Below the pieces are notes generated by a model that saw nothing but the letters and a program-made list of their open reading frames with translations, did no database searches and was not told the origin of the DNA. Shown here one piece after another: positions 24,423-26,932 of a stretch of DNA of 64,000 bases. Position numbers and translations under genes: made by a program. Source of the stretch: Endozoicomonas sp. G2_2 (GTDB lineage Bacteria > Pseudomonadota > Gammaproteobacteria > Nevskiales > Salinisphaeraceae). The stretch covers positions 186,001 through 250,000 of the forward strand of contig NZ_JAGHQU010000004.1 in NCBI RefSeq assembly GCF_017744135.1. The letters are read 5' to 3'. Positions within the stretch are counted from its first letter, which is position 1. Every line of letters starts with the position of its first letter.

Positions 24423-25265
24423 ATGACCACCCAATTCACCGGGACCGACCGTTACGTCGCGACCGATGATCTCAAGCTCGCGGTCAACGCCGCGGCCACG
24501 CTGCAGCGCCCGCTGCTGATCAAGGGCGAGCCCGGCACCGGCAAGACCATGCTCGCCGAGGAAGTTGCGGCCGCGCTCGAAAAGCCGTTCTATCAGTGGC
24601 ATATCAAGTCGACCACCAAGGCCCAGCAGGGCCTGTACGAGTACGACGCCGTGTCGCGCCTGCGCGATTCGCAGCTCGGCGACGAAAAGGTCCACGATAT
24701 CGCCAACTACATCGTGCCCGGGCCGCTGTGGGAATGCTTCACCTGTGATACCCAGCCGGTACTGCTGATCGACGAGATCGACAAGGCGGATATCGAATTC
24801 CCGAACGATCTGCTGCGCGAAATCGATCGCATGGCGTTCGACGTCTACGAAACGCATCAGACGATCGAAGCGCGTCACCGCCCGATCATCATCATCACGT
24901 CCAATAACGAGAAGGAACTGCCGGACGCCTTCCTGCGCCGCTGCTTCTTCCACTTCATCTCGTTCCCGGACAAGGACACGATGCGCGAGATCGTCGACGT
25001 GCACTTCCCGGACATCAAGAAGAACCTGCTGTCGGATGCGATGGATCTGTTCTTCGACGTGCGTGACGTGCCGGGCATCAAGAAGAAGCCCTCGACCTCG
25101 GAGTTGCTCGACTGGCTCAAGCTGTTGCTGGCCGAAGACATCCCGGCCGAGGCGCTGCACTCCGACAATGCGCGCGACGCGCTGCCGCCGCTGCATGGCG
25201 CGCTGCTCAAGAACGAGCAGGACGTGCATCTGTTCGAGCGCCTCGCGTTCATGACGCGCCGCTAG
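24423..25265 (+). CDS. MoxR-family AAA+ ATPase
   Basis: The 280-residue AAA+ protein has Walker A GEPGTGKT at 35-42 and Walker B LLIDEIDK at 114-121. Sensor-1 is in IIITSNNEKELPDAFLRRC, which also supplies the arginine finger. MoxR ATPases act as chaperones for cofactor insertion or complex maturation, typically with a vWA-domain partner encoded just downstream. Here the partner (25754-26932) is separated from this stop codon by a 473-bp inverted-repeat-bounded insert. The start at MTTQFTG was chosen because the family alignment begins there; the ribosome-binding site is poor. Confidence 0.88.
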   Translation: MTTQFTGTDRYVATDDLKLAVNAAATLQRPLLIKGEPGTGKTMLAEEVAAALEKPFYQWHIKSTTKAQQGLYEYDAVSRLRDSQLGDEKVHDIANYIVPGPLWECFTCDTQPVLLIDEIDKADIEFPNDLLREIDRMAFDVYETHQTIEARHRPIIIITSNNEKELPDAFLRRCFFHFISFPDKDTMREIVDVHFPDIKKNLLSDAMDLFFDVRDVPGIKKKPSTSELLDWLKLLLAEDIPAEALHSDNARDALPPLHGALLKNEQDVHLFERLAFMTRR

Positions 25266-25275
25266 GACAGAAGAA

Positions 25276-25298
25276 CTCACGCAAAGGCGCAAAGACGC
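25276..25298 (+). repeat. Left inverted repeat of the GxxExxY cassette
   Basis: The 23-bp repeat begins CTCACGCAAAGG and ends CAAAGACGC. It contains two CGCAAAG heptamers at an 8-bp period. Its reverse complement is exact at 25726-25748, and weaker matching continues inward with one indel and one mismatch (TAAGAAGA against TCTTCCTTG). It ends 8 nt before the GTG start of the enclosed gene. Confidence 0.9.
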
Positions 25299-25306
25299 TA
25301 AGAAGA

Positions 25307-25696
25307 GTGAGCCAAGAGAACGATATAGCCCGACGCGTCGTCGATGCTGCATACCACATCCATGTAGGCCTTGGGCCTGGTTTGCTTGAGTCAGTTTACG
25401 AAGCAGTGCTCGCACACGAGCTGAGGGCGCAACAGCTTGATGTTCGCAGGCAGGTTCCGGTACCGGTCGTGTATAAGGATCTGCGTTTCGATGAAGGGTT
25501 TCGGGCGGATCTCATCGTCCAAGACCGCGTCATTGTCGAACTGAAATCTATCGAGCAGATGGGGGCAGTCCACGCAAAACAAGTGCTGACTTATTTGCGG
25601 CTAGCCGATAAGCGACTTGGCTTGCTAATTAATTTCGGCGAGTCATTGTTCAGAGATGGCGTAAAGCGAGTCGTCAATGACCTTCAAGATAGATAG
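25307..25696 (+). CDS. GxxExxY protein (PDDEXK_3-type nuclease fold)
   Basis: The 129-residue protein has the family signature G25-x-x-E28-x-x-Y31 in GLLESVYE. It also carries a complete PD-(D/E)xK-type active-site set: Asp68 in F-R-A-D-L-I-V, Glu78 and Lys80 in VELKS, and Gln92 with Tyr96 in KQVLTYL. All residues expected of an intact nuclease-like core are present, so it is not a visible remnant. Substrate and biological role of the family are unknown to me. The start is GTG, preceded by AAGAAGA that partly derives from the adjoining repeat. GC content and codon choice (CTT, AGG, AAT, TTA-rich) differ from both neighbours, consistent with recent acquisition. Confidence 0.88.
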   Translation: MSQENDIARRVVDAAYHIHVGLGPGLLESVYEAVLAHELRAQQLDVRRQVPVPVVYKDLRFDEGFRADLIVQDRVIVELKSIEQMGAVHAKQVLTYLRLADKRLGLLINFGESLFRDGVKRVVNDLQDR

Positions 25697-25725
25697 GCTG
25701 CTTATTCCGCACTTTTTCTTCCTTG

Positions 25726-25748
25726 GCGTCTTTGCGCCTTTGCGTGAG
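25726..25748 (-). repeat. Right inverted repeat of the GxxExxY cassette
   Basis: This is the exact 23-bp reverse complement of the left repeat. It ends only 5 bp before the ATG of the vWA gene and so occupies that gene's ribosome-binding position. The only purine-rich stretch left there is GTGAGAC. Confidence 0.9.
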
Positions 25749-25753
25749 ACAAA

Positions 25754-26932
25754 ATGCTGATCGAATTCTTCTACGAGCTGCGCGAAGCGGGTCTCAAGCC
25801 GTCGGTCACCGAGTACCTGACGTTGCTTGAGGCGTTGGATCATCATGTCGGCGGCATGAGCGTGGAGAATTTCTACTATCTATCGCGCGCCACGCTGATC
25901 AAGGACGAGACCAAGTTCGATCGCTTCGACCAGGTATTCGGCCATTACTTCGACGGCATCCAGGCCGCAACCGAGGATCTCACCACCGATATTCCGGACG
26001 AATGGCTCGAGAAGATGAAGCAGCTCGAGCTGTCCGACGAGCAGAAAGCCCAGATCGAGGCCATGGGCGGCTGGGACAAGCTCATGGAAACGCTCAAGAA
26101 ACGTCTGGAAGAACAGGGCGAGCGCCACGAGGGCGGTAGCAAGTGGATCGGCACGGCCGGCACGTCGCCGTTCGGCGCCTACGGCTTCAACCCGGAAGGT
26201 ATTCGTATCGGTCAGGACGGCTCGCGGCATCGCCGGGCTGTCAAGGTTTGGGACAAGCGCGAGTTCGCCAATCTGGACGGCAGCCAGGAAATCGGTACCC
26301 GCAATATCAAGATGGCGTTGCGCAAGCTGCGCCGCTTCGCCCGCGAGGGCGCGGACGAAGAGCTGGATATGGATCGCACCATCCGGGCGACCGCGAAGAA
26401 CGCCGGCAATCTGGATCTGCACATGCGTCCGGAGCGGCGCAACGCGGTCAAGCTGCTGATCTTTTTCGATGTCGGTGGGTCGATGGACGATCACGTGGCC
26501 ACCGTCGAGTCCCTGTTCTCGGCCGCGCGCGCCGAGTTCAAGCATCTCGAGTACTACTACTTCCACAACTTCCCCTACGAAGGGCTGTGGCGTGACAACC
26601 GCCGCCGGCGCACCCAGCAGCATTCGACCTGGGACGTCTGTCATACCTATACGGCGGATTACAAGGCGATCTTCGTGGGCGATGCGACCATGAGCCCCTA
26701 CGAAATCGCCTATCCGGGCGGCGCTGTCGAACACTGGAACGCCGAGGCCGGGGCGGTCTGGCTGAAGCGCCTGCTCGACAGTTTCCCCGATGCGGTATGG
26801 CTCAATCCAGAGCCGACCCAGCGCTGGGACTACACGCCGTCGATCCAGATGACGCGCGAACTCATGGATGACCGCATGTACGCGATGACGCTCGACGGCC
26901 TCGAGGCCGCGATTGATCGGCTCGCGGACTGA
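25754..26932 (+). CDS. vWA-domain (CoxE-like) protein, MoxR partner
   Basis: The 392-residue protein has an N-terminal helical part (MLIEFFYELREAGLKPSVTEY, common in CoxE-like proteins) and a C-terminal von Willebrand A domain. The metal-ion-dependent adhesion motif is D239-V-G-G-S243-M-D-D, i.e. D-x-G-x-S rather than the classical D-x-S-x-S; this variant is common in this family. FVGDATMSPYEI and YAMTLDGLEAAIDRL end the protein. With MoxR it probably forms a chaperone pair that remodels or metallates an unidentified client. Its translation signal is probably altered by the cassette inserted immediately upstream. Confidence 0.85.
   Translation: MLIEFFYELREAGLKPSVTEYLTLLEALDHHVGGMSVENFYYLSRATLIKDETKFDRFDQVFGHYFDGIQAATEDLTTDIPDEWLEKMKQLELSDEQKAQIEAMGGWDKLMETLKKRLEEQGERHEGGSKWIGTAGTSPFGAYGFNPEGIRIGQDGSRHRRAVKVWDKREFANLDGSQEIGTRNIKMALRKLRRFAREGADEELDMDRTIRATAKNAGNLDLHMRPERRNAVKLLIFFDVGGSMDDHVATVESLFSAARAEFKHLEYYYFHNFPYEGLWRDNRRRRTQQHSTWDVCHTYTADYKAIFVGDATMSPYEIAYPGGAVEHWNAEAGAVWLKRLLDSFPDAVWLNPEPTQRWDYTPSIQMTRELMDDRMYAMTLDGLEAAIDRLAD

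Follow-up and report, generated by a model that had tools for sequence, protein, structure and literature searches.

Several described systems have features in common with the cassette reported here. In REPIN-RAYT systems, gene and repeat types have been proposed or shown to co-evolve, and a genome can contain several types, each with its own gene (accessible parts of PMC3116915 and PMC8266576). The intervening sequence (IVS) of the Coxiella 23S rRNA gene is bounded by a 28-bp terminal inverted repeat and has three tandem heptamers ahead of its S23 gene, according to the accessible text of PMC4990558. In a 2009 paper on Geobacter metallireducens, paired repeats of three or four units on opposite strands were read as sites of a global regulator of the IHF/HU type; the class 2 consensus, TCTCCGTS, is the complement of a unit like CACGGAG (accessible part of PMC2700814). 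Gene-less MITEs of PD-(D/E)XK_2 (YhgA-like) elements have been proposed in Thiomargarita (PMC4853749, in its accessible part). The GxxExxY family is named in PMC8934634 and PMC12085832, and the accessible text of PMC8934634 assigns it no role. Our search of the open literature, with subscription papers and preprints outside its scope, found no paper linking GxxExxY/PDDEXK_3 to repeats of the kind described below.

We analysed a 64,000-nucleotide stretch of DNA from Endozoicomonas sp. G2_2 (hereafter the window), in which a preliminary description made from the sequence alone had noted a GxxExxY gene between inverted repeats. We report that this cassette is real, that it was inserted, and that it is one case of a wide rule.

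The cassette and its insertion site

The cassette occupies positions 25276-25748 of the window and is 473 bp long (Table 1). Its 27-nt arms pair at 26 of 27 positions (96% complementary) and are perfect over the outer 23 bp; the 23-bp perfect repeats of 8-bp period first described were thus confirmed and extended. The best inverted-repeat score of the arms was 24.5, whereas none of 300 dinucleotide-preserving shuffles of the flanks exceeded 13.5. The ORF is intact, and its product scored 140.2 bits with TIGR04256 (cut-off 35) and 138.3 bits with PF13366 (cut-off 22), which was its sole Pfam match at E<=0.001. The PD-(D/E)XK residues D68, E78 and K80, which the preliminary description had also found complete, are present together with the family's E28. 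No further ORF of at least 80 aa lies wholly within the cassette. The GC content is 52.0% in the cassette, 61.7% in moxR, 61.5% in the vWA gene and 64.0% in the window, and just 0.55% of the window's 473-bp stretches are as AT-rich as the cassette. The AT-richness claimed at first therefore stands, but the value of 68-77% given for the flanking genes was wrong (nearby 250-bp segments range from 49% to 70%).

Table 1. Features of the cassette and the adjoining genes (positions in the window)
Feature	Position	Strand	Description
moxR-type AAA ATPase gene	24423..25265	+	Left neighbour; Pfam AAA/AAA_5; same neighbour in 13 same-genus genomes
Left arm	25276..25302	+	CTCA, then three CGCNAAG units (25280-25286, 25288-25294, 25296-25302); 8-bp period
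GxxExxY gene	25307..25696	+	129 aa, GTG start; PD-(D/E)XK nuclease fold; TIGR04256/PF13366
Right arm	25722..25748	-	Mirror image: CGCNAAG units 25738-25744, 25730-25736 and 25722-25728 on the minus strand, then TGAG on the plus strand
vWA (CoxE-like) gene	25754..26932	+	Right neighbour; PF05762; matches in 29 of 31 genomes, this one included

The gap between moxR and the vWA gene was 6-43 bp in 12 of the 13 other same-genus genomes searched. The cassette is thus not common to its genus, and its description as a unit inserted between moxR and its vWA partner is upheld by the near-empty gap. The most parsimonious reading is that the cassette with its gene arrived in the gap once this lineage had separated from its sister species. 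In the thirteenth genome (G003) the gap is 433 bp long and contains arms of a different spelling that start GTCCGCAAATAAACGCCAATGCGCGCAAAT (L093). A genome of the same family (G015) has a 172-bp gap with a CACAAAG-type palindrome nested beside CAGAG-type units (L100). Because three different spellings occur in this gap, it has been filled at least three times, which may reflect either target choice or tolerance. The idea of a homing-type system, raised in the preliminary description, found no support, as the insertion is intergenic, in a gap that varies in length and sequence, and not in a conserved recognition site inside a gene or intron.

Arms at GxxExxY loci in other genomes

We gathered 179 GxxExxY loci, of which 29 came from 61 related genomes including this one, 70 from a phylum sample and 80 from a species scan. 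The phylum loci came from a listing that covered 398 sampled genomes, and comprise 30 loci and 40 further ones that we picked by hand with longer matches first. The species-scan loci were the best 80 of at least 570 matches, with one genome per species. Loci with short flanks were dropped, 10 of 179 from the inverted-repeat test (leaving 169) and 11 of 179 from the unit test (leaving 168). L128 and L227 are one locus (100% over the whole stretch), and both are in the counts.

The best inverted repeat between the flanks scored at least 14 at 125 of 169 loci, as compared to 1 of 148 controls with flanks shifted 700 bp outwards. Our unit detector required each of the two flanks to hold at least two C[AG]CN[AG]A[AGT] units, spaced by 8-11 bp and pointing inward. 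Such inward units were detected at 111 of 168 loci and in none of the 148 shifted controls; outward units were detected at 13 of 168. By either test 139 of 168 loci have arms; of the 29 without, many carry units in a single flank. The link of gene and repeats proposed for a single locus thus extends far beyond it. In the species scan, arms were found at 58 of 74 testable loci, in 16 named phyla and three records not assigned to a phylum, where single-record phyla may be misassigned because many of the records are metagenome-assembled. Among these best 80 of at least 570 matches, the armed loci were from Bacteroidota (18 of 25), Verrucomicrobiota (8 of 9), Acidobacteriota (4 of 4), Cyanobacteriota (3 of 3) and others, and the armless ones include one each from Methanobacteriota and Caldifarciminota.

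D, E, K and E28 are complete in 156 of 168 proteins. Five of the 12 proteins with an incomplete set are armless, as compared to 24 of the other 156 (Fisher p 0.036), a weak contrast because the 12 include truncated proteins. At L127 the gene is accompanied by a partial second copy in tandem.

In the predicted RNA fold of the cassette the arms are paired; this fold beats shuffles with z -4.8, as is expected of any long inverted repeat. Of the two terminator-like matches detected (1.0 expected), one overlaps the left arm. These two points would fit an ordinary gene flanked by terminator-like hairpins that lies by chance in an intergenic gap. We consider this explanation most improbable, as it leaves unexplained the matching dispersed copies described below and the near-empty gap in relatives; the survey, with arms at 139 of 168 loci and in none of the controls by the unit test, speaks against it as a whole explanation. 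Rfam gave no match at the cassette up to E 1, and at eight other loci it gave one sub-threshold miRNA match.

Unit spelling and the protein tree

The general unit is C[G/A]CN[A/G]A[G/T/A] with a period of 8-11, and its spelling varies between loci. We found CGCNAAG, CACNAAG, CGCNGAG, CACNGAG, CGCNGAT, CACNGAT, CGCNAAT, CACNAAT, CACNGAA and a few others. The periods, mostly 8 to 11, are usually mirrored in both arms. Four of 125 armed loci fell outside the unit pattern and six read outward.

The code was compared with a tree of 125 proteins (n=112; n=105 for the period), a quick tree built from few columns, with 49 of its 121 inner branches open. Position 7 of the unit required 3 changes on this tree, as compared to a shuffled mean of 27.4 and a minimum of 22 in 300 shuffles. 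Position 2 required 16 changes (shuffled mean 35.6) and position 5 required 19 (36.6). The whole unit required 29 changes (shuffled mean 69.5, minimum 63), and the period 18 (47.4, minimum 38). Unit spelling and spacing thus differ between clades and follow the protein tree. Because gene and arms are linked, joint inheritance could produce this association, which alone is no proof of recognition.

The CGCNAAG palindromes of several genomes showed 3.4% mismatch at the fixed positions in the arm opposite an exact arm, a value that is a floor because the search tolerated no more than 2 mismatches per arm. The N position of these palindromes was A in 78, C in 29, G in 22 and T in 9 cases, and N letters matched across the two arms with a frequency of 0.35, as compared to 0.39 in shuffles. 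A free N without cross-arm matching points to unit-by-unit reading on duplex DNA rather than a hairpin. This point is not general, because some excess of cross-arm matching was found in CGCNAAT (0.53 vs 0.40) and in CRCAGATT (0.90 vs 0.77, n=7). An RNA hairpin as the selected feature was rejected on the unmatched N letters of the CGCNAAG arms, with the same reservation for CGCNAAT and CRCAGATT. Avoidance of the same code within a genome was not significant (1 of 19 pairs shared a unit, where 2.0 were expected by chance). Protein residues that change together with the code were sought without result, there being few independent pairs among those listed.

Dispersed palindromes without the gene

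This genome contains one GxxExxY gene and 12 exact triple CGCNAAG arrays, two of which are the cassette's own arms; the backward-read pattern is absent. Fourteen places in the genome were read by eye, and 12 of them are short two-arm palindromes without a gene. A strict two-arm search recovered 8 of those 12, with interiors of 17-117 nt that look unrelated by eye. The preliminary description gave GxxExxY genes as multi-copy in environmental genomes, which is not true of this genome, where the multi-copy part is the repeats.

Exact triple CGCNAAG arrays were found in none of the 13 same-genus genomes. Three gene-less sites could be aligned with 5 or 6 relatives each, and the palindrome is absent from the relatives at all three. 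Further DNA that surrounds the arms in this genome is likewise absent from the relatives, at a resolution short of exact junctions because the close relatives are too diverged. At a fourth queried site the relatives' spacers range from 42 to about 607 bp and were left unaligned, so the site was not counted as empty.

Two candidate origins of the palindrome interiors were rejected. Interiors made of native target DNA were not seen at the three aligned sites, where the relatives' spacers are shorter. Interiors copied as part of a MITE were looked for by BLAST among 40 palindromes, and the short interiors of G053 are not homologous, in which they differ from ordinary copied elements. The BLAST matches in G053 come from a nested repeat in five long interiors only. 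This separate repeat, of about 32-57 bp, lies inside the longer interiors of L341, L344, L346, L351 and L357. In G013, some interiors have ends in common and nested iteron elements by BLAST. There the CGCNAAT palindromes L366, L367, L368 and L372 have a common inner GAATACAGAC-type extension, and several hold nested CGCAGAT-type elements. At G013:C12:87339-87409, consecutive CGCAGATT units of 9-bp period give six exact triples that overlap, as though single units were able to duplicate. For the 23 palindromes from the strict two-arm search, interiors were compared by eye only.

The terminal bases are nearly fixed by group, with [T/C]GAG outside the CGCNAAG arms and GACC in G053. A target-site duplication was sought at 63 palindromes and 112 cassettes and no convincing direct repeat was found. 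The largest deviation, with z 6.3 for palindromes at offset 0 and length 3, comes from a mixture of groups with different fixed end bases, which confounds it.

Association of gene and palindromes in trans

Exact triple arrays were counted in each genome after the gene's own arms had been taken off, with the backward-read pattern as control. A carrier was a genome with a typed arm pair, and genomes with truncated or untyped genes counted as non-carriers. These statistics ignore the relatedness of the genomes. CGCNAAT arrays were found in all five carriers (24, 8, 19, 8 and 68) and in 8 of 56 others (MWU p=6e-7), and the contrast also holds within the genus alone (MWU p 0.0015). CRCAGATT arrays were found in 6 of 6 carriers and 7 of 55 others (MWU p=2e-7). 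CGCNAAG arrays were found in 4 of 8 carriers and 3 of 53 others (MWU p=3e-4); all 8 labelled carriers were kept in this test, including 5 without three adjacent units in the arm layout. In the second family, CACNAAG arrays were found in 5 of 6 carriers and 15 of 39 others (Fisher p=0.052, MWU p=0.003), and CGCNGAG showed no association (2 of 7 carriers vs 17 of 38 others, MWU p=0.71). The backward-read control patterns were zero in nearly every genome. Thus, for four of five codes, gene-less palindromes are commoner where a gene of the matching code is present. Such unlinked palindromes are a stronger test of a cognate link than the agreement of tree and code.

Some genomes have arrays and no detected GxxExxY gene, namely G035 (13), G043 (31) and G059 (8) with CGCNAAG and G053 (76) with CGCNAAT. 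The preliminary description would have given up its claim if repeats of this type occurred without any link to GxxExxY genes, and these four genomes count in part against it. G053 (25 palindromes, L340-L364) and G043 have dozens of arrays of one code and no GxxExxY match; a lost gene, a missing contig or another mover could account for them.

We also examined genes of the S23 family. PF05635 had no match in this genome. In relatives, 10 of 11 S23-family loci were located, and 6 of the 10 passed a threshold score of 16, with inverted repeats scoring 17 to 32.5, as compared to 9.5 to 11.5 in the control. The boxed loci are L387, L389-L392 and L395 (in G052, G025, G056, G054, G002 and G035), and the repeats of five of the six are iteron-like by eye, for example GATAGTA, GTGAGGC and CGGGACT.

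These boxed S23 genes, the Coxiella intervening sequence with its 28-bp terminal inverted repeat and three heptamers (accessible text of PMC4990558), and the arrays in genomes without a detected GxxExxY gene would all fit a reading in which other machinery moves the arms. GxxExxY would then be a cargo and S23 a second cargo, perhaps of machinery acting on RNA or via a reverse transcriptase. We regard this as quite unlikely, given that arm spelling follows the GxxExxY tree, that palindromes go with the gene of the same code for four of five codes, and that the S23 arm units differ from those of GxxExxY.

Maintenance and carriage of the gene

GxxExxY homologues of at least 75% identity frequently share a locus between related species; elsewhere only the cassette is in common. 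In 17 of 25 same-locus pairs dN/dS was 0.03 to 0.28, and dS was saturated in the other 8. These values indicate purifying selection on the gene at shared loci. L047 and L048 (in G005 and G007) represent one locus at which the catalytic K is replaced by R and no arms are detectable; this pair has a dN/dS of 0.16. The exceptions to a single copy per code are two CACNGAA genes in G089 and the tandem partial copy at L127.

Carriage by phages or plasmids was considered and rejected; tblastn matched none of 50,697 phage records, and plasmid carriage was rare, at 8 of 72,556 records. A scan of viral contigs with the patterns of this clade matched 39 stretches, and none of them encodes a relative. Gene-less CGCNAAG palindromes were seen in six viral contigs (L380-L385), in four of them at one and the same site, next to CACAGAG-type units. 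An empty counterpart of these viral palindromes was sought in two flank searches and not found.

An AlphaFold2 model from 41 sequences had a pLDDT of 94.5 and showed two helices and a sheet in an arrangement of the PD-(D/E)XK kind. Foldseek alone found no PDB match at E<=0.001. After realignment, the best matches were SSO0001 (Z 9.3, rmsd 4.4, 101 aligned) and a restriction-endonuclease-like protein (Z 8.4), and Holliday-junction resolvases gave Z 5.6 to 6.6. These modest matches of a predicted model show the fold, not the function.

The purifying selection at shared loci, even in the L047/L048 pair without the catalytic K, could also be read in terms of a host function. The palindromes would then be binding sites of GxxExxY or of another protein, a host regulator or chromosome organiser, and nothing would move now. 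Constrained units with a free N would fit such sites, as would the similar paired repeats of G. metallireducens with their class 2 consensus TCTCCGTS (PMC2700814, accessible part). We find this reading unlikely. The three aligned sites without a palindrome and the lack of exact CGCNAAG triples in 13 of 13 same-genus genomes indicate rapid gain or loss of the sites. In addition, 156 of 168 proteins retain all catalytic residues and E28, and the gene-bearing copy was itself inserted at moxR-vWA.

Discussion

Taken together, the sequence comparisons suggest a mobile or once-mobile system whose protein may read its own DNA code. The GxxExxY protein probably reads its own unit spelling. With moderate confidence we also favour the view that the cassette belongs to a repeat family, as the member that bears the gene, and that its protein would move or maintain the palindromes as well. 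Against this view count the CGCNGAG code with its lack of association, the genomes that have many arrays and no detected gene, the unrelated short interiors of G053, the L047/L048 pair and the search for a target-site duplication, which yielded no convincing one. In the mechanism that we envisage, the protein would bind units of its own spelling on duplex DNA and would bridge or cut the two arms, and this bridging or cutting would copy or maintain the gene-less palindromes in trans. The gene itself is mostly single-copy per code and often keeps its locus, with purifying selection acting on it, much like a RAYT in relation to its REPINs.

A broader proposal is more tentative. GxxExxY clades may be readers of a diversifying code, each with its own spelling and period, which spread and keep iteron palindromes in trans. 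They could then form a domesticated PD-(D/E)XK class parallel and unrelated to REPIN-RAYT, with S23/IVS as a third independent realisation.

Inspection of the arms alone points to the protein's likely DNA substrate, so that its binding and cleavage are accessible to direct tests. If the proposal is true, it would account for families of iteron palindromes in intergenic DNA, some of them perhaps described as regulator sites, and would provide many natural protein-code pairs from which to learn how a small nuclease fold reads DNA.

Among known systems, the Thiomargarita MITEs are similar in that they are proposed to be gene-less elements of a PD-(D/E)XK family. They differ from GxxExxY in the family (PF12784) and in having 10-bp direct repeats and a 19-bp inverted repeat, with iteron arms undescribed in the accessible part of the source. 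The G. metallireducens repeats resemble the palindromes in their tandem units of about 8 nt, opposite-strand pairs, variable distance and dozens of sites; unlike the GxxExxY arms, they are linked to no gene in the accessible text of PMC2700814.

The S23/IVS cassettes are similar in build: they measure about 430-470 bp, encode a single small protein (predicted at 14.2 kDa in Coxiella) and have terminal inverted repeats of 27-28 bp, as far as the accessible description goes. However, the S23 protein is a four-helix bundle and not a nuclease, the units are spelled differently, and the known S23p examples in the accessible sources are located in rRNA genes, from which RNase III excises them.

The likeness to a RAYT-type system put forward in the preliminary description has held up, with a single-copy gene, many gene-less palindromes and matching codes. 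As in the accessible accounts of REPIN-RAYT, a single-copy gene of nuclease type stands beside inverted repeats and many matching palindromes lack the gene. The single-copy, vertically kept gene of that system is also found here (one copy; same-locus dN/dS 0.03-0.28), though the cassette is not genus-wide. The two differ in the protein, GxxExxY having the PD-(D/E)XK fold (PF13366) whereas RAYT is a Y1 HUH transposase and a relative of IS200/IS605. They also differ in the DNA, as the GxxExxY arm is an array of 7-nt units with an 8-11 bp period and not a REP hairpin, and the N letters of CGCNAAG palindromes lack hairpin-like co-variation. By analogy, REPIN-RAYT is the nearest working parallel to the GxxExxY cassette, and the S23/IVS cassette is the nearest anatomical one.
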